From: Lepidurus packardi
Lineage: Eukaryota; Arthropoda; Branchiopoda; Notostraca; Triopsidae
Assembly (NCBI GenBank): GCA_023053545.1
Contig: JAKZAN010000005.1
Location: forward strand, 2,480,001 to 2,544,000
Direction: 5' to 3'
Length of the DNA stretch: 64,000 nt
Shown here in pieces: positions 25,894-36,350 of this stretch; the first letter of the stretch is position 1; every line of letters starts with the position of its first letter. The notes beneath the pieces are model-generated. The model was not told the DNA's origin and did not search any database. It saw nothing but the letters and a program-made list of their open reading frames with translations. Both the position numbers and the translations under genes were made by a program.

Positions 25894-26159
25894 AATGGTT
25901 ACATATAAAATGGTCTTTAATTGTAAAATGTACAGTACTGAAATTAAGTATCGTTCCTATGGTTTTCGAAATTGACCAATCACAGCGCTTTTCCACTGTT
26001 TGGATGGGTTTTTACATTGCTTGCCTACTTCTACGCTCAGGTAGGGTTCTCAACAAGTCCCTCCTAGTCCCCAGTTAATTAAAGAGCAGGTCAGTCAATT
26101 AAATGCTCCTTAGTAGCGAAGCTAATCCCTTTTCCCTGACAAACAAAAGGTCAAAGCAA

Positions 26160-26640
26160 AGAAAATGCTTGGCGACCATCAATCCAGAAACTTTATTTTT
26201 CATCAATAGCTAGTATGACCCCCCCCCCCCCCGTTCTCCCGACACTCTTCCAATCTCCTAGGCATAGATGCTGCCAGCTTGGACCAGAAGTCAATGTTGT
26301 CTGACATCTTATCCCACACACGCTCGGCCTCCGCAAACAATTGTTCTGCATTTCGCACGTTAAAACTAATTAAATAAAAATTAAAAATGGATATCTATAT
26401 TTAAGGATGTTAGTTATACTTCATATTTTTTTCAGCTCAGCCCAAGCATTTTCGATAGGATTTAGGTCGGGTGACTTGGGGGGGTGCGGTAGGAGATTTA
26501 CGTTTTCTTCACGGAAGAAGTCTCTCACAATTCTTGCAGTGTGGATGGGAGAATTGTCTTGTTGATATGTAAATTGGTGGCCCAGCAAATCTCGCATGAT
26601 TGGAAGTTCCTGTCTCATCATATACAGGAAGATTCAGAAA
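26160..26640 (-). pseudogene. Tc1-like transposase, C-terminal fragment
   Basis: Minus-strand frame from about 26625 contains QQDNSPIHTARIVRDFF (second catalytic Asp) and PPKSPDLNPIENAWAELKK (the third acidic region of Tc1 transposases). After a short AT-rich interruption (about 26345-26425) the frame resumes with WDKMSDNIDFW and SMPRRL-like sequence, the usual Tc1 C-terminus, running into a C14 homopolymer near 26219. The N-terminal DNA-binding half is missing. Confidence 0.8.
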
Positions 26641-26808
26641 GATTCTTACCAGACTCACGAAAGAGACGAGCTTTACGCAGAAAGCTTCGCTACTAAGGAG
26701 CATTTAATTGACTGACCTGCTCTTTAATTAACTGGGGACTAGGAGGGACTTGTTGAGAACCCTACCTGAGCGTAGAAGTAGGCAAGCAATGTAAAAACCC
26801 ATCCAAAC

Positions 26809-27064
26809 TGTCGAGAATATTGGATATAGAAAATTTCCTGCGTTGTGTATTTTAACTAGATGAATCACAAGGAAAGAACTGTTATTATAGCAATGGCAAG
26901 GAACAACAATCAATATGCTCAGGCGGAACACGAACGACCCGGCAAGGCTACCAAGCCTTCGCTTCCCCTGGTCTGCCTTCTAAGCAACTTTAGGAACGTC
27001 ATACAAATCGGGTGGGAATACAAAAAAGAGGGAATAGAAGGAACGCAATTAGGAATCCGCAACA
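26809..27064 (-). repeat. Composite LTR 1
   Basis: TGTCGAGAATATTGG to GGAATCCGCAACA on the plus strand. Differs from LTRs 2 and 3 at a few positions (AAAATTTCC versus AAAATGTCC; CAAGGAAAG versus CAAGGGAAG). Confidence 0.92.
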
Positions 27065-27716
27065 TCCTCCGGCGCGGGCTGATCAGGTAATGGTGCGTGG
27101 CCGATCCACTGACGAATCTTGGCTAGTGCCCGGTCTGCGGCTTCTCGACGATTCCTGCGTAGGGGTATTGGCTCCGATGGATCGGGAAGCTGAGCGGAGG
27201 AATCCACTTCTTCAACAACGGCATGCCTTACTTCAAGAGGGTAAAGTTTCGTCACTGGACGGTTGGTAACCCCTTTAGCAGTTCTGATAGTCGCAGTACG
27301 AACGATACCGTCGTTACCCGGAATAATTTTCTCCACGCGAGCTATAGGCCAGTATAGTCGCTTGCCTTCGTTATGGATTAAGAATATGTCACCGGGTTTA
27401 ACTTGATTGGCTGGAGAAGATGGGTTACAAATATGGAATTCCCTAAGATTCTTCAGGTACTCTTCCTTCCACCTCTGCCAATAATGAGAAATAAGACGCC
27501 TTTGTAAGGCGAATCTCTTTGGGAGAGCCTTTTCCGCGAATGTAGGGTCAAGAGTGGATCGTTAAGGATGGTGGCGATTTCCATTAGTACCGTACGCAAT
27601 TCATCGAAAGAAAGCAAGGAACGTCCAAGTTGTTTCTTTAAGAGGGTTTTCGTAATACCAATCATCCTTTCCCATAGACCCCCAAACCATGGGGCCACGT
27701 AAATGTAAGTAAGTAA
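27049..27716 (-). pseudogene. BEL/Pao integrase end and C-terminal domain, unit 1
   Basis: On the minus strand the sequence starts at VAPWFGGLWERMIGITK (integrase region with the catalytic Glu) beside a (TAAG)n microsatellite, loses the LNDRPL-to-DUF5641 link through an internal deletion and a frameshift near 27550, and resumes as HYWQRWKEEYLKN and VEKIIPGNDGIVRTATI, ending in the LTR. The same lesions occur in unit 2, so they predate the duplication. Nothing upstream of the integrase survives. Confidence 0.85.
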
Positions 27717-30044
27717 GTAAGTGGCCACGACGGCGAATATATCAGTCTCGTTTCCAAAGTAGATGAAGACCAAGTGCTCAGTCCAGACGTGGGGCTAACC
27801 CCGGAGGAGGAGCAGTGCGCACTCAAGGCTGGGAGACTAACTTGGAACACCCTCCATCCCGGTGGTGGGAAGACCACCCGGGTTATACGGAGGCTAGTTG
27901 AGCTCGGCAGGGCTAATGGAAGACGAATGTTAGTGTTAGCCCCCACGAGAGTGGTCAAGGAGCAACTGCTTGCGGGCCTCAAGGACCTGGGGGCAACCGA
28001 CAGCGTAAAAAGGAAAAGTCTCGTTAGCGTCGGATGCCACGCCACATTTTTCGCTGAGGTTCTTCGCGGTAGCAACAGGTTCTTTGACCTCTACATCATG
28101 GATGAAGCCCACTACGTGGAACCCTCCTCTATAGCCCTCCGAGGTTGGATAGCAAACGAAGTTAGGGACGGGAGAACATCAGCCCTCCTTTGCACCGCCA
28201 CTCCTCCAGGAAGCAGTGAAAACTGCGAAAGCAACTACCCTATTGTGGAAACAAGGATCAGTCCTCGAGACATTTCCAAGTCCTACTTTCAAGGAAAAGA
28301 CACTGATTTCTCGGCCAGAAAGATTAGAGCCAAAGTAGGGCCCGGGAACTTGTGTGTTTTCTGCTCCTCAATTCGAAAGGTGAAGGATCTGGCTCAAGAC
28401 GCCTTGCGCGAGGGGGAGAACGCGCAGGAGCTCCATAGCGGGAACTTTGACGACACATATCAGCGCATCCTAAAGGAACCTCCCAGTTTTCTCGCAACCA
28501 CAGACATCTCTGAACTTGGAGCTAATTATGACCTCGACATAGTGGTTGACCTCCGCAGGACAATGAAACCACTCGTGAACAACCTTGATTTCCCTTCTGA
28601 GGAGGTCACAATGGAGAGTTTTCCAGCCAACCATTGCAGTGTCAACCAGCGCCGAGGAAGAATTGGAAGGCTGAAACCTGGAAAATACTTCTATCTGGAC
28701 GAGGAACCCCTAGAGTATCCGGGGGAAACAGCGATGTACGTGGAGGCCCGGATCCTGCTGGACCAGTTTGAGACTGCCATCCCAGCTCTAGCCCCAGAGG
28801 AACGCAGCGGTATGGTATTGGGAAAAAGGAAGCTGCTTCCTGAGGAGAGGAACACCTTCACCGCCCTCGTCTGCGACAGGAGTTTCCCCGTCTGGCTAGC
28901 CTACAACGTAGCACGGGAAAGAGAAGACAGCTGGCTTGTAAACTGTGGAGATTGTAAAAAAGATGATGCCAAGGAATTCGCCAAGCGAAATTCCTATCTG
29001 AGCATCACCCATGGAAGACACGCTGGGCAACCCTTCAGACCCAAGTGGATGGACCAGAGGATGTTCGAAAGGGGGAAGATGAGGCCCTTCATGCAAGCCT
29101 ACCTAAGCGGCCAGCAGGTTTATAGAACCGATTTTGGACTGGCCACCAACATCGCAGCTGCGGTGCTGGAGACGTTTGCAGTAGCAGAACTCTTCTTTAA
29201 CAAAGATTTCGGCTCTTTCTCCGACAAGCTAAAAATCCAGATCTATGGGTACGTCGGCCTGTGGGGAATAGTTGGCTGCATGGTCCTCCTAGGGTTCCTT
29301 TCCAGGGTATTTACCATGCTAACGAGGAAAGAAGAGTATGCTGCTCCCGAGAGGCATGTTCAAGGCAAGGAAAGGAATCTCGTCCAGGGGGCTTTCGCCT
29401 TCACGGTGCTTTCAACTTCGTGCTACCTTTTCTACGGGATGTATGTGGGGGTACTGGATGTGAAACACTGCATAGTGATTTGCTTCTGCAACATGGTTTT
29501 TGTCGGATGCTACGTCCACGAGGCCTCCAGCTACCGTAGTTTCCAAGACAATGCACTCTCAATCCTGTACTGGGTAACGGCCGTGATTGGCGTAACAGTG
29601 GCCATGAACGAGATGAGCCTGCTTGAAAAGACAAAACAAGACCTCTCCGGGCACAGGGAGACGGTTACGCTAGTCAGTGGCCCCCGGTGGAACGAGTGGA
29701 TGTTTGCTGATGGTGACCTAGCAGCAGCCATGAGCTCCTTGAACGCTCTCCATGCTATCGTCATGCCCTGGTGGCGGAAAAGGGCAAAGCTTAAGGCTGA
29801 GGTGAAGCTGGCGGGATCCGAGCCCAACATGGGGCCCCAAAAGGAAGTCGAAATTCCATTCCCCTGGGAAAGCATGGGAATCCCCGAGCTTTTCATTTTC
29901 GCTGCTCTCATGCGCTCCGTGTTCGTGGGCAGTTTCGCCTCTCTCATTTTGGGAGGGGCTGTAGGAGGGCTGGCTATGTATTTCACAGTCAGCCACGACG
30001 GCGCCGTCATCCTCAACAACTCACGTCGAGAATATTGGATATAG
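27717..30044 (+). pseudogene. Endogenous flavivirus-like NS3 helicase-NS4A-NS4B, unit 1, open frame
   Basis: Open from 27717 to a TAG inside LTR 2; 756 codons from the first usable start (GTG 27774). From 27774: Walker A GGGKTT (residues 30-35), DEAH (110-113), TATPPG (141-146), motif V ATTDISELG (241-249), motif VI QRRGRIGR (292-299), all intact. The NS3 protease domain is absent except perhaps its last residues. Several hydrophobic segments (about 475-600) correspond to NS4A, and NEMSLLEKTK (about 612) marks the start of NS4B, which is cut off by the LTR. Helicase-to-NS4B order is that of orthoflavivirus-like genomes. No methionine start of viral type or host promoter is seen. Antisense to the retroelement. 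Confidence 0.92.
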
Positions 30045-30279
30045 AAAATGTCCTGCGTTGTGAATTTTAACTAGATGAATCACAAGGGAAGAACTGTTAT
30101 TATAGCAATGGCAAGGAACAACAATCAATATGCTCAGGCGGAACACGAACGACCCGGCAAGGCTACCAAGCCTTCGCTTCCCCTGGTCTGCCTTCTAAGC
30201 AACTTTAGGAACGTCATACAAATCGGGTGGGAATACAAAAAAGAGGGAATAGAAGGAACGCAATTAGGAATCCGCAACA
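30025..30279 (-). repeat. Composite LTR 2
   Basis: 255 bp, lacking the terminal T because viral sequence joins directly (CTCAC|GTCGAG). It ends CCGCAACA before the second pol remnant. Confidence 0.92.
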
Positions 30280-30931
30280 TCCTCCGGCGCGGGCTGATCA
30301 GGTAATGGTGCGTGGCCGATCCACTGACGAATCTTGGCTAGTGCCCGGTCTGCGGCTTCTCGACGATTCCTGCGTAGGGGTATTGGCTCCGATGGATCGG
30401 GAAGCTGAGCGGAGGAATCCACTTCTTCAACAACGGCATGCCTTACTTCAAGAGGGTAAAGTTTCGTCACTGGACGGTTGGTAACCCCTTTAGCAGTTCT
30501 GATAGTCGCAGTACGAACGATACCGTCGTTACCCGGAATAATTTTCTCCACGCGAGCTATAGGCCAGTATAGTCGCTTGCCTTCGTTATGGATTAAGACT
30601 ATGTCACCGGGTTTAACTTGATTGGCTGGAGAAGATGGGTTACAAATATGGAATTCCCTAAGATTCTTCAGGTACTCTTCCTTCCACCTCTGCCAATAAT
30701 GAGAAATAAGACGCCTTTGTAAGGCGAATCTCTTTGGGAGAGCCTTTTCCGCGAATGTAGGGTCAAGAGTGGATCGTTAAGGATGGTGGCGATTTCCATT
30801 AGTACCGTACGCAATTCATCGAAAGAAAGCAAGGAACGTCCAAGTTGTTTCTTTAAGAGGGTTTTCGTAATACCAATCATCCTTTCCCATAGACCCCCAA
30901 ACCATGGGGCCACGTAAATGTAAGTAAGTAA
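30264..30931 (-). pseudogene. BEL/Pao integrase end and C-terminal domain, unit 2
   Basis: Same structure, same deletion and same frameshift as the copy at 27049-27716. One visible substitution lies near 30600 (ACTATG for AATATG). Confidence 0.85.
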
Positions 30932-33264
30932 GTAAGTGGCCACGACGGCGAATATATCAGTCTCGTTTCCAAAGTAGATGAAGACCAAGTGCTCAGTCCA
31001 GACGTGGGGCTAACCCCGGAGGAGGAGCAGTGCGCACTCAAGGCTGGGAGACTAACTTGGAACACCCTCCATCCCGGTGGTGGGAAGACCACCCGGGTTA
31101 TACGGAGGCTAGTTGAGCTCGGCAGGGCTAATGGAAGACGAATGTTAGTGTTAGCCCCCACGAGAGTGGTCAAGGAGCAACTGCTTGCGGGCCTCAAGGA
31201 CCTGGGGGCAACCGACAGCGTAAAAAGGAAAAGTCTCGTTAGCGTCGGATGCCACGCCACATTTTTCGCTGAGGTTCTTCGCGGTAGCAACAGGTTCTTT
31301 GACCTCTACATCATGGATGAAGCCCACTACGTGGAACCCTCCTCTATAGCCCTCCGAGGTTGGATAGCAAACGAAGTTAGGGACGGGAGAACATCAGCCC
31401 TCCTTTGCACCGCCACTCCTCCAGGAAGCAGTGAAAACTGCGAAAGCAACTACCCTATTGTGGAAACAAGGATCAGTCCTCGAGACATTTCCAAGTCCTA
31501 CTTTCAAGGAAAAGACACTGATTTCTCGGCCAGAAAGATTAGAGCCAAAGTAGGGCCCGGGAACTTGTGTGTTTTCTGCTCCTCAATTCGAAAGGTGAAG
31601 GATCTGGCTCAAGACGCCTTGCGCGAGGGGGAGAACGCGCAGGAGCTCCATAGCGGGAACTTTGACGACACATATCAGCGCATCCTAAAGGAACCTCCCA
31701 GTTTTCTCGCAACCACAGACATCTCTGAACTTGGAGCTAATTATGACCTCGACATAGTGGTTGACCTCCGCAGGACAATGAAACCACTCGTGAACAACCT
31801 TGATTTCCCTTCTGAGGAGGTCACAATGGAGAGTTTTCCAGCCAACCATTGCAGTGTCAACCAGCGCCGAGGAAGAATTGGAAGGCTGAAACCTGGAAAA
31901 TACTTCTATCTGGACGAGGAACCCCTAGAGTATCCGGGGGAAACAGCGATGTACGTGGAGGCCCGGATCCTGCTGGACCAGTTTGAGACTGCCATCCCAG
32001 CTCTAGCCCCAGAGGAACGCAGCGGTATGGTATTGGGAAAAAGGAAGCTGCTTCCTGAGGAGAGGAACACCTTCACCGCCCTCGTCTGCGACAGGAGTTT
32101 CCCCGTCTGGCTAGCCTACAACGTAGCACGGGAAAGAGAAGACAGCTGGCTTGTAAACTGTGGAGATTGTAAAAAAGATGATGCCAAGGAATTCGCCAAG
32201 CGAAATTCCTATCTGAGCATCACCCATGGAAGACACGCTGGGCAACCCTTCAGACCCAAGTGGATGGACCAGAGGATGTTCGAAAGGGGGAAGATGAGGC
32301 CCTTCATGCAAGCCTACCTAAGCGGCCAGCAGGTTTATAGAACCGATTTTGGACTGGCCACCAACATCGCAGCTGCGGTGCTGGAGACGTTTGCAGTAGC
32401 AGAACTCTTCTTTAACAAAGATTTCGGCTCTTTCTCCGACAAGCTAAAAATCCAGATCTATGGGTACGTCGGCCTGTGGGGAATAGTTGGCTGCATGGTC
32501 CTCCTAGGGTTCCTTTCCAGGGTATTTACCATGCTAACGAGGAAAGAAGAGTATGCTGCTCCCGAGAGGCATGTTCAAGGCAAGGAAAGGAATCTCGTCC
32601 AGGGGGCTTTCGCCTTCACGGTGCTTTCAACTTCGTGCTACCTTTTCTACGGGATGTATGTGGGGGTACTGGATGTGAAACACTGCATAGTGATTTGCTT
32701 CTGCATCATGGTTTTTGTCGGATGCTACGTCCACGAGGCCTCCAGCTACCGTAGTTTCCAAGACAATGCACTCTCAATCCTGTACTGGGTAACGGCCGTG
32801 ATTGGCGTAACAGTGGCCATGAACGAGATGAGCCTGCTTGAAAAGACAAAACAAGACCTCTTCGGGCACAGGGAGACGGTTACGCTAGTCAGTGGCCCCC
32901 GGTGGAACGAGTGGATGTTTGCTGATGGTGACCTAGCAGCAGCCATGAGCTCCTTGAATGCTCTCCATGCTATCGTCATGCCCTGGTGGCGGAAAAGGGT
33001 GAGGCTGAGGAAAAGGCTGAGGTGAAGCTGGCGGGATCCGAGCCCAACATGGGGCCCCTAAAGGAAGTCGAAATTCCATTCCCCTGGGAAAGCATGGGAA
33101 TCCCCGAGCTTTTCATTTTCGCTGCTCTCATCCGCTCCGTGTTCGTGGGCAGTTTCGCCTCTCTCATTTTGGGAGGGGCTGTAGGAGGGCTGGCTATGTA
33201 TTTCACAGTCAGCCACGACGGCGCCGTCATCCTCAACAACTCACGTCGAGAATATTGGATATAG
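30932..33264 (+). pseudogene. Endogenous flavivirus-like NS3 helicase-NS4A-NS4B, unit 2, one frameshift
   Basis: Same content as the copy at 27717, with all helicase motifs unchanged. Differences seen: an Asn/Ile change (about 32704), a Ser/Phe change (about 32862), a silent change near 32960, and a 5-nt length difference near 33000-33013. That indel ends the main frame at 33025; the NS4B part continues in another frame (about 32986-33264). The rate of difference is well under 1% over 2.3 kb, so the duplication is recent or the copies have exchanged sequence. Confidence 0.92.
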
Positions 33265-33499
33265 AAAATGTCCTGCGTTGTGTATTTTAACTAGATGAAT
33301 CACAAGGGAAGAACTGTTATTATAGCAATGGCAAGGAACAACAATCAATATGCTCAGGCGGAACACGAACGACCCGGCAAGGCTACCAAGCCTTCGCTTC
33401 CCCTGGTCTGCCTTCTAAGCAACTTTAGGAACGTCATACAAATCGGGTGGGAATACAAAAAAGAGGGAATAGAAGGAACGCAATTAGGAATCCGCAACA
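33245..33499 (-). repeat. Composite LTR 3
   Basis: 255 bp, ending CCGCAACA directly before the CAAAC target duplication. On the minus strand this is the 5' LTR of the array. Confidence 0.92.
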
Positions 33500-33571
33500 C
33501 AAACAGTGGAAAAGCGCTGTGATTGGTCAATTTCGAAAACCATAGGAACGATACTTAATTTCAGTACTGTA

Positions 33572-36350
33572 CCTTTAAGAGAGGGGACAAGTAGGGAAAA
33601 TGATGCAGAAGAGAGCAAACTTAGGAGTAAGATAAGGAAACCGTGGTGGGACGAAAATTGCAGTGAGCCAATAAGCAACATGCGAACGAAATACAGATTA
33701 ATGAAACGAAGCCCCAACACTGAAACCTTGACAGAATACAAGAAATCCAAAGCAAATTGTAAGAGAATTACACAGGAAAAGAAAAGATCCCACTGGAAAT
33801 CGAAGGTGGAGGGTTTAGGAAAACAAACAACAACCAAACAAATGTGGGAGCTGATAAGAAGAATGGAAGGAACAACAGCGGAAAATATAGAAAGGGTGAC
33901 GCTTAATTCAGGGGGACAGTGTATACAACAAAACGAAGAAAAAGCAGGAACTTTTGTGGAGCATTTCGCCAAGATACAAAGTGAGGAGCCGGAAACTGAG
34001 GCAAATGAAGCGGAGTTATTTCACATACAATTTGAAATAAACAACATCATAGACGATAGAAACAGCACGACTGGTTTTGATAGACCGTTCACGGAATGGG
34101 AAATAGAGGAGATTTTAAGAAAAACACCAAAAACGAGCCAAGGAAAAGACTTGGTACACTACAATTTTTTAGGGAAATTACCAAAAAATTGAAGGCAAGC
34201 ATTGAGAATACTTTTTAATCACATATTGGAGTGCGGCATGGTACCTAAAGACTGGTGCAATGCGGTAGTTGTACCTATTTTAAAAGCAGGCAAAAACCAC
34301 AATGAAGTGAAGTCATACAGGCCCATATCCCTGATATCGTGTGTTACCAAAGTGTTCGAAAGAACGCTAGTCAAAAGGCTCAACTGGATCTCTGAAAAAA
34401 GAGGGTGGTATTCTCCGGCACAGTCAGGATTCAGACGAGGTCGAAGCACGGTGGACCAACTGGTCAGGCTGAACAATGAAGCTCATCGTGTGTTTGAAAA
34501 CGGAGAGGTATTAGTTGCATTATTCATAGATCTAACCCCTGCGTATGATTCAGTCTGGGTAGACAGACTACTATACAAAGTTGGGCAAAAAGGAGTTAAG
34601 GGCAAAATTTTAGGAATTCTGAAATGTTTTTTAAGCAACAGAACGATGGAAGTGAGAGTCGGTCGAAGCATGTCCAGACAAATACAGCTATAAAGAGGAG
34701 TTCCCCAGGGGTCGGTGCTCAGTCCATGGCTATTCAACATGATGCTATCAGATTTCCTCATGGTTAATATGATATAATTTCCTCATGATTAATATCTTAC
34801 TCACGGTATACAAAAATTTTATACGGTCGAAACTAGAGTACGCAAGTTTTATATACAGACACATTAACGCTAGGAAACTAGATGTCATAGAAACAGTGCA
34901 AAACAAATCATTAAGAATAATACTGGGTGCAACGAAAACAACGCCGATCGGGGTGTTACATTGCGCCGCAGAAGTAGTTTCCATACAAAGAAGGAGAGTT
35001 TTAATTGAACAAACATATTTTAATAGAATGATAGAATGTCACAGGGACGATCCTGTAGTACAAGAGATAGTGAACAAGAATTCCCTGTCTTGGGAAAGTG
35101 TGTCCGAAACCAAAAACACAATCAAAATACCTTACGCAATGCAAGGCATTTTTTGTAAAAAAAATTTACCCCCATGGGAATTCGAAGGCCATCAGATACA
35201 AACCGCGATCCCGGAAAACAGCAAGGAAAAGTGCAATCAGCAAATAGTGCAAGAAGTTTTAATGTTTTTAGAGAAAAACTATGGAAATTTTAAAAGGGTT
35301 TTTACAGACGGATCGAAAGACAACGAGGGAAACTCGGGATGCGGTGTATACATGTTGTGATTCATGGAACCCAAAATGTTTGCCTGTATATTTAATTAAC
35401 CTTTCTGCCCCTTTTCCTTGACCCCTGATCCTTGAACCCTGACTTATTTACTCCGCCCTTCGACCCTTAGGTTTGATCCGCTTGCTATGTATGTTGTGTA
35501 TAAAAAGGAAGTGAATTGTTGGTGTAGAGTCAGTACAAAACATAACTTCTACTAAGCTGGGGTTCTATCCAACCATTTGATTCGGTAGCTAGAACAATAC
35601 ATGGAGGAAATGGGGGAGACAAGGTTATACGCACTAAACACATCATCGACAGTAACGGCAACAGAATTACACGCTTTACTAAAAGCGATGGCTTAGATTG
35701 AGGAAAAAGAGCAATGCAAGTATGTTATACCGACCGACTCAAAATCCGCAGCACATATGCTAAATAACTGGGGGAACCGGTCCTATTACGGTGTCTCATA
35801 CAAAAGATTCAAAACAGTATGAATTGGTTAAGGATAAATGGGTACACCATAAAGATTCAGTGGATACCAGCACATAAAGGGATCAGGGGAAATGAAATTG
35901 CGGATGGAGCGGCAAAGGAAGGAAGGAAGTCAGGAGAGGAAATTAAACACAAAATAACGAGCCAAGAACTGAAAACAATAACGAAAAGAAAAATTGAAAA
36001 GGATTACATAGAAGAACTAAAGGCTAGAACGGCACAGAAAATGGTTCAGAACCCGCATCAGTTCGGGACCAACAAATGGAAAAACAGTAAGAAAAGAAGG
36101 GAAGCCATCGTACTTCTAATAATAACATGCGGACATGGGAGATTCGGGTCATGGCTACACCGGTTCAATATGATAGAAGATGACACACGCCGTTATTGTG
36201 AGGAGGAAGAAAGTCCAGAGCACCTAATAATGAGATGTGGGAAGTTTACAGAAGAAAGGAAGGAACTCCGGACAAAACTAGAAAATAATAAAATAGCTTG
36301 GAGATTTGAAAATATAACGGCATTAGCGGCATTAACGGCAATAAAAGAGA
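33572..36350 (+). pseudogene. Decayed non-LTR retrotransposon (RT, RNase H), interrupted by a solo LTR
   Basis: Starts in the linker before RT (KPWWDENCSEPISNMRTKYR). RT blocks include SYRPISLISCVTKVFE, SPAQSGFRRGRSTVDQL, LFIDLTPAYDSVW and RGVPQGSVLSP. The next part, including the YADD box, is deleted (about 34765). The thumb region (RSKLEYASFIYR) and RNase H follow (VFTDGSKDNEGNSGCGVY; TELHALLKAMA; PTDSKSAAHML; IPAHKGIRGNEIADGAA), then a Cys/His end (EEEESPEHLIMRC). Presence of RNase H suggests the I/R1/LOA side of the LINE tree. Stops at about 34190, 34691 and 35696 and frame changes make it dead. The endonuclease is missing. Confidence 0.85.
35353..35596 (+). repeat. Solo LTR inside the LINE RNase H region, ATACA target duplication
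   Basis: 244 bp, TGTTGTGATTCATGG to TAGCTAGAACA, flanked by ATACA at 35348-35352 and 35597-35601. Removing it and one duplication restores continuous RNase H reading across the site. It contains a TATAAAAAG box near 35499. The TGTTGTGA start resembles the BEL/Pao LTR at 1869. Confidence 0.85.

Follow-up and report, generated by a model that had tools for sequence, protein, structure and literature searches.

A flavivirus sequence enclosed between BEL/Pao long terminal repeats in Lepidurus packardi and its probable capture during reverse transcription

The window analysed here is a stretch of 64,000 nucleotides (C4:2480001-2544000) from the 108.6-Mb, 344-contig genome assembly of Lepidurus packardi. 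At 26809-33499 it carries an array in which the end of a BEL/Pao retrotransposon is joined to flavivirus sequence, arranged as long terminal repeat (LTR), unit 1, LTR, unit 2, LTR. Within each unit, between LTRs, the end of a BEL/Pao integrase lies beside 2.3 kb of flavivirus sequence (NS3-NS4B), and the unit spacings were 3215 and 3220 bp. The LTR outer ends of the array are TG..CA, and an exact CAAAC lies directly outside both of them.

Anatomy of the array and its insertion site

The integrase end reads on the minus strand and the viral sequence on the plus strand; element and virus therefore have opposite orientations, the element being on the minus strand and the virus antisense. Read in the orientation of the element, an LTR is followed by antisense virus, the integrase end, and the next LTR. 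The three LTRs were compared with the first base excluded, since it differs at the junction, and the pairs differed at 3, 2, and 1 of 255 positions. Units 1 and 2 differed at 18 of 3220 alignment columns, made up of 13 substitutions and one 5-bp indel (~0.4%). A reading made from the sequence only had described three LTRs and two units of reversed integrase and virus, and this was borne out by the LTR alignment, by the minus-strand match to DUF5641 (E 3.3e-22), and by the presence of the CTCAC/GTCGAG and TAAG junctions in both units (slashes mark joins).

The viral part was certain for NS3, with matches to Flavi_DEAD (E 1.1e-33) and Flav_NS3-hel_C (E 6.9e-07). It was 33-36% identical over 85-92% of the query to the NS3 of six named flaviviruses, full polyproteins being outside the length range of the search, and the NS3 helicase homology identified a flavivirus-derived endogenous viral element (EVE). 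NS4A (E 0.041) and NS4B (E 0.07) were under the Pfam cut-offs. Of the identity NS3-NS4B given by the sequence-only reading, NS3 thus stood, and the NS4A and NS4B names rest mainly on position. The viral frame is open for 775 codons in unit 1 and is broken by a 5-bp insertion in unit 2.

The array interrupts a DNA transposon with long terminal inverted repeats (25989-26123/26683-26817, 98% identical; 25926-26002/33500-33576, 99%), and the transposon repeat gave 45 matches in the genome. Four of the 45 matching loci were fetched, two of them probably being arms of one element. When the flanks of the array were joined with CAAAC retained once, there were 0 mismatches in 90 positions to the transposon's own left arm and to all four fetched loci. 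Because the left arm and the 4/4 fetched loci carry the uninterrupted site with a single CAAAC, the CAAAC flanks are no coincidence, and the duplication that had been proposed around the whole array proved exact. As judged from these sequences, the insertion was exact: 5 bp were duplicated and no target sequence was lost. Inside the target transposon we also noted a run of Cs (26219-26233) and, by eye, a Tc1/mariner-like transposase remnant (26440-26480). Plus-strand frames at 33545-35360 of the window resembled a non-LTR reverse transcriptase, again judged by eye.

Features of the array and its target, in window coordinates
Feature	Position	Strand	Remarks
DNA transposon with long terminal inverted repeats	25926..26808		Insertion target; right repeat split by the array, resuming at 33500
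Left target-site duplication	26804..26808		CAAAC
Left LTR (element's 3' LTR)	26809..27064	-	Outer TG, inner CA; LTRs of full-length BEL/Pao copies match at ~98%
3' end of BEL/Pao pol (integrase end, DUF5641)	27065..27695	-	PF18701, E 3.3e-22; without 113 nt at ~27557
Junction zone	27693..27729		GGCCACG, 23-nt filler TAAATG(TAAG)4T, GGCCACG; GGC common to the BEL and viral relatives
Unit 1 flavivirus, NS3 helicase to NS4B-like	27723..30024	+	Open up to the LTR; 775-aa open frame; Flavi_DEAD E 1.1e-33
Middle LTR	30025..30279	-	Virus-side terminal base C, the LTR's own being T
Unit 2 BEL/Pao integrase end	30280..30910	-
Unit 2 flavivirus sequence	30938..33244	+	Frame broken by local 5-bp insertion; 3 stops downstream
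Right LTR (element's 5' LTR)	33245..33499	-	Outer end CA
Right target-site duplication	33500..33504		CAAAC
Rest of the transposon's right inverted repeat	33500..33576

Parent elements and base-level joins

The window LTR gave 16 matches in the genome, and four near-full-length copies of the parent element (L024, L025, L026, and L027) were examined. L024, L025, and L026 are two-ended, with LTR pairs differing at 1, 3, and 0 positions, and all three are flanked by 5-bp target duplications (ATAGG, ACGTT, and AAAAG respectively); the 3' LTR of L027 is truncated. The internal regions of the parents were 99.1-99.6% identical. In L026 and L027, frames of 1789 and 1779 aa are open and encode Pao peptidase, reverse transcriptase, and DUF5641 domains (PF05380, PF00078, and PF18701, above cut-off), and the gag-pol frames of L024 and L025 are interrupted. 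The parental full-length BEL/Pao element, for which a search had been suggested, was therefore present in the same genome, in two copies with open gag-pol frames. The pol domains of the parents, the TG..CA ends of the LTRs, and the short duplication of fixed length place the element in BEL/Pao; the chimera itself retains PF18701 only.

In all four parents, the LTR is directly followed by TGGTGCCGTGACC.., and the sequence TTGGTGCCGTGACCAGG after the LTR (4/4) is a primer-binding site (PBS) by its form. The first 13 nt of this PBS were missing from the array on both strands, so that the PBS beside the 5' LTR expected of a mobilisable element is absent. No 14-mer from the first 500 internal bases of L024, or from its gag-pol up to the integrase fragment, was found in the array. 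The chimera thus retains the 3' end of the parent, without PBS, leader, gag, and most of pol. Its integrase piece consists of blocks of 491 and 138 nt, 99-100% identical to 5 genome copies. The 491-nt block of unit 2 is identical to that of L024 and L027 (two of the four parents), and that of unit 1 differs at one position. The 113 nt between the two blocks are present in 5/5 other copies found and missing from the chimera; no GT-AG ends were seen by eye on either strand, which dismissed a spliced intron, and the gap is read as a deletion or a template jump.

At the join between LTR and virus, the array reads CTCGAC/GTGAG and the parent reads CTCGACA/TTGG, leaving the LTR one base short. A viral relative on contig C2 reads CCGTCG and the LTR reads TGTCGAG at this point; GTCG is common to both, and the preceding base is viral. 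At the join between virus and integrase, GGC is common to both sides, and the 23-nt filler TAAATG(TAAG)4T lies between two copies of GGCCACG. The chance of at least 4 shared bases at a random join is 0.016, and of at least 3 shared bases 0.05. The filler was also compared with a BEL segment containing TAAGTAAGTGG; a copy of this segment was rejected, since its match was equalled by 19 of 64 control segments and by 18 of 500 shuffles. The parents, the ends, the duplication, the empty site, the loss of the PBS, and the positions of the joins can all be read directly.

Probable capture, insertion, and later doubling

During reverse transcription of an LTR element, the strand that starts at the polypurine tract extends across the LTR as far as the PBS, through which it then pairs with the PBS that terminates the first strand. 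We consider it probable, from the anatomy and the joins, that the flavivirus was captured during BEL/Pao reverse transcription, that a misplaced second-strand transfer closed the product, that integrase inserted it, and that doubling followed later. In the germ line of an infected arthropod, BEL/Pao reverse transcription would switch between the retroelement and a viral template. The product would hold the 3' end of the element (integrase end, polypurine end, and LTR), and the PBS would never be copied. With the first strand strayed onto viral RNA and no PBS made, the LTR strand would have no annealing partner. The end of this strand, lacking the last base of the LTR, would be linked instead to viral sequence within GTCG. 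The integrase of the element would then place the two-LTR product into the transposon, making the 5-bp CAAAC duplication, and unequal recombination between LTRs would double the unit afterwards. The product expected from these steps is the 3' part of the element with both LTRs, the 5' part lost, and virus at or just past the inner end of an LTR, which is the pattern observed. The order of the steps, the template strand of the virus, the germ-line infection, and the route of doubling are what we infer. The earlier proposal of capture by template switching before integration, with replacement of gag and most of pol and insertion by LTR-element machinery, was supported by the parents, the exact empty site, the anatomy, and the finding that the LTR and virus matches in the genome coincide in the window only.

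A second chimera was found at C2:1337225-1349405 (L041/L011/L042), where a flavivirus insert is joined to a gypsy LTR whose PBS continues as antisense tRNA-Gly(GCC). The insert contains NS3 and NS5 and adjoins gypsy sequence; its start resembles by eye what we take to be the end of NS1. To its left, the final 208 bp of a gypsy LTR are followed by the PBS TGGTGCATCGACCGGGAA. After the PBS, a neighbouring gypsy copy has AGGTGGTTTG, whereas the C2 chimera has 34 nt of exact antisense tRNA-Gly(GCC), ~12 Cs, and virus. The complement of CCA proves nothing alone, because it is part of any normal PBS; the evidence lies in the further 34 nt. A stretch of 49 nt starting at the encoded 3' end of the tRNA was identical at 17 of 18 other genome matches (92% at the eighteenth), and five inspected loci were tRNA-Gly(GCC) genes with no TGG at that end. 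At no other place among those genome matches was an LTR end joined to tRNA sequence. On the right side, the virus runs into the gypsy 3' region and LTR at GGAGGAGGG. Over 83 nt at the outer ends, the two LTR pieces are identical to one another, and this stretch could represent the R region. A hAT element with an 8-bp duplication (CAAGGGCC) splits the virus in NS5.

The simplest reading of the C2 join is that the plus strand was copied through the primer tRNA, likely tRNA-Gly, and then fused with viral sequence; a tenable alternative is that a tRNA gene recombined with the element at the DNA level, by way of the 18-nt PBS. It is conceivable, at somewhat less than even odds, that in this lineage flavivirus RNA was captured by at least two unrelated LTR retroelements (BEL/Pao on C4, gypsy on C2) through one and the same failure, in which the PBS was lost and the LTR end, alone or with the read-through primer tRNA, was joined to viral DNA.

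The joins and the C2 locus bear on another origin of the array, in which an ordinary BEL/Pao element inserted first and double-strand-break repair later swapped its interior for viral complementary DNA. Such an origin would give the same LTRs and the same CAAAC duplication, and end joining, too, typically leaves a few shared bases at the joins. However, the break must by chance have fallen at most 1 nt from the LTR/PBS boundary, and a random break in the 5281-nt interior lies within 1 nt of the LTR inner end with a chance of only ~0.0006. Moreover, the primer-tRNA extension of the C2 insert lies at the corresponding boundary in another element. We therefore regard break repair as improbable and capture during reverse transcription as the preferred origin.

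As to the tandem, one simple element probably integrated, and the second unit probably arose later by LTR recombination. Two observations argue for this order. The chimera has no PBS, so another round of copying would not be easily possible; and sites with the same PBS occur at regular steps elsewhere. The 15-nt complement of the parent PBS gave 120 matches in the genome and 0 with a reversed-pattern control, and runs of 5 (10577669-10601179) and 6 (10652550-10681938) matches on contig C1 are spaced at 5874-5879-nt steps. Across C1:10.57-10.71 Mb, runs of this BEL-type PBS motif are compatible with large head-to-tail arrays of LTR elements. The earlier description of a chimera inserted as a retroelement and present as a tandem was supported, with a refinement: the two-unit array is present in the assembly, and integration as a simple element that doubled later is preferred over insertion of the tandem. 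The assembler may instead have joined two alleles of one chimera head to tail. The 13 substitutions in ~3.2 kb (0.4%) and one 5-bp indel are in the range of ordinary heterozygosity, and the tandem is known from the assembly. However, the doubled stretch stops at LTR boundaries with no flank included, and elements with the same PBS show regular, head-to-tail-like spacing elsewhere; a false duplication is accordingly rather unlikely.

Several points weigh against capture followed by later doubling. The antisense virus would require a minus-strand viral RNA as template, or a switch to genomic RNA and back during plus-strand synthesis. The 4-nt GTCG overlap is itself a likely rather than a direct reading, because the viral sequence there is known only through a 75%-identical relative with an apparent 3-nt indel at that point. 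The TAAG filler has no explanation. The argument from C1 uses the spacing of a 15-nt motif, and the C1 LTRs gave no match to the window LTR; the array and its copy number rest on the assembly. Finally, no TG..CA outer ends and no clear target duplication were seen around the C2 insert, which therefore parallels the window in the join only and not in insertion.

Related viral loci, precedents, and possible role

The window virus was 75-90% identical in nucleotides to three other loci in the genome, which contains four other viral stretches: one on C2, two on C5 at 9.60 and 9.69 Mb, and an NS5 stretch on C5 at 11.32 Mb. Compared with one C5 locus (C5a), the window gave dS (synonymous divergence) of 0.56 and dN (nonsynonymous divergence) of 0.018 over 249 codons; compared with the C2 locus, 620 of 716 codons encoded identical residues and synonymous sites were saturated. 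Because the differences from the window are mostly at synonymous sites, the C2 and C5 loci look like separate entries of diverged viruses and not copies of the window unit. The genome was searched for further copies joining LTR and virus, as had been suggested, and among the 16 LTR and 5 virus matches the two co-occurred in the window only. Together with the absence of a PBS, this led us to reject multiplication of the chimera as a family of its own.

Capture of RNA-virus sequence inside BEL/Pao elements has precedents, and what is new here is the base-level joins. In eBxnv-1 of Bursaphelenchus xylophilus, a nodavirus RNA-dependent RNA polymerase (RdRp) lies inside a Tas-related Bel/Pao element (PMC5177903). 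As in the window, where virus lies between two LTRs of one element, RNA-virus sequence is enclosed by BEL/Pao LTRs, and the authors speculate on copy-choice recombination by reverse transcriptase. As that paper describes it, eBxnv-1 is a degenerate element in single copy, with no clear further copies, that kept its PBS and polypurine tract and has truncated 132-nt LTRs. In contrast, the window has near-intact parents, a PBS lost at the join, an exact 5-bp duplication with an empty site, antisense virus, and two tandem units. AeBunya1 of Aedes aegypti lies in a full-length Pao-Bel element (PMC5497376); like the window it is a viral insert within BEL/Pao, but a bunyavirus by name. These two enclosed cases qualify the statement of the sequence-only reading that in most reported cases viral sequence lies beside an element and is not enclosed in LTRs with a target duplication. 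Anakin elements, mosquito Pao elements carrying a chuvirus glycoprotein, also have an RNA-virus gene inside BEL/Pao LTRs (PMC7642597). According to the same source, these elements multiply, are potentially functional, and carry an envelope-like gene, whereas the window holds a defective insert at one site.

Hybrid DNA of virus and LTR retrotransposon, including the flavivirus CFAV, has been reported from infected Aag2 cells and ascribed to copy choice (PMC6797480). These hybrids resemble the window in recombining viral RNA with an LTR element, but they are episomal reads from a cell line, as that report presents them, and the window is an inherited two-LTR insertion. For the capture of non-retroviral RNA by retroelements, PMC5177903 cites Geuking et al. 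2009 (recombination of retrotransposon and RNA virus in mammals) as the experimental example and Tanne & Sela 2005 (plant) as the one earlier natural example. In our literature search, largely of titles and the openings of abstracts and with most subscription journals outside its coverage, we found no report of flavivirus sequence bounded by an LTR on either side and flanked by a target duplication, nor of an EVE carrying a primer-tRNA extension.

For RNA viruses that have no reverse transcriptase, the route into the germ line is usually deduced from the proximity of viral DNA to retrotransposons. In L. packardi, a single genome shows the parent element, the target site in uninterrupted form, and the joins, and the join at the LTR/PBS boundary points to second-strand transfer as the capture step. 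The second, unrelated element with a primer-tRNA extension beside virus suggests a rule that can be tested at EVE borders, namely LTR ends, lost PBS, and tRNA extensions. If the PBS-loss failure is indeed shared, it would leave a predictable fossil of LTR, virus, 3' part of the element, and LTR, with the 5' part of the element lost. It would also be a recognisable route of genome entry for non-retroviral RNA viruses, the BEL/Pao case being inserted by integrase and oriented for LTR-driven antisense viral RNA.

The antisense orientation makes the insert a concrete candidate for LTR-driven antiviral RNA. The LTR promoter might transcribe the element strand, antisense to the virus, and feed a small-RNA pathway. 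The relative orientation of element and virus fits this role, and EVEs of Aedes make antisense PIWI-interacting RNAs (piRNAs), according to PMC6797480. However, the frame of unit 2 is broken and the changes are too few for a test of selection, and we consider an antiviral role doubtful. Such a role would be an addition to the capture origin and is no alternative to it.

The remaining observations concern the other viral loci and the assembly. The blocks at 9.69 Mb (L012/L044) and 9.60 Mb (L013/L046) of C5 are inverted copies, 99.6% identical over 3 kb and ~90 kb apart; in both, NS3 is cut short and followed by envelope-glycoprotein sequence, as in a rearranged insert. The hAT element beside the C2 insert (L042:522-4041) was 100% identical over 3520 bp to one beside a C5 viral insert (L045:1282-4801), so both copies are very recent. 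The NS5 insert at C5:11313904-11318670 (L061/L034/L035) has one stop in its RdRp match and lies downstream of a frame with a Baculo_F envelope domain. Its viral homology begins 8 bases past an 810-bp block, of which C2 carries two copies 8 kb apart. We rejected it as a third LTR chimera, because the block extends further in the C2 copies and the join is not at a definable LTR end. A nuclear COI copy in the assembly matched arthropods, the best named hits being Chrysomya (87%) and Penaeus monodon (90%). COX1 matches without internal stops in the standard code were present on contigs C52, C214, and C43, possibly bacterial contigs in the assembly; among 38 other COX1 matches, those listed with stops mostly show TGA.

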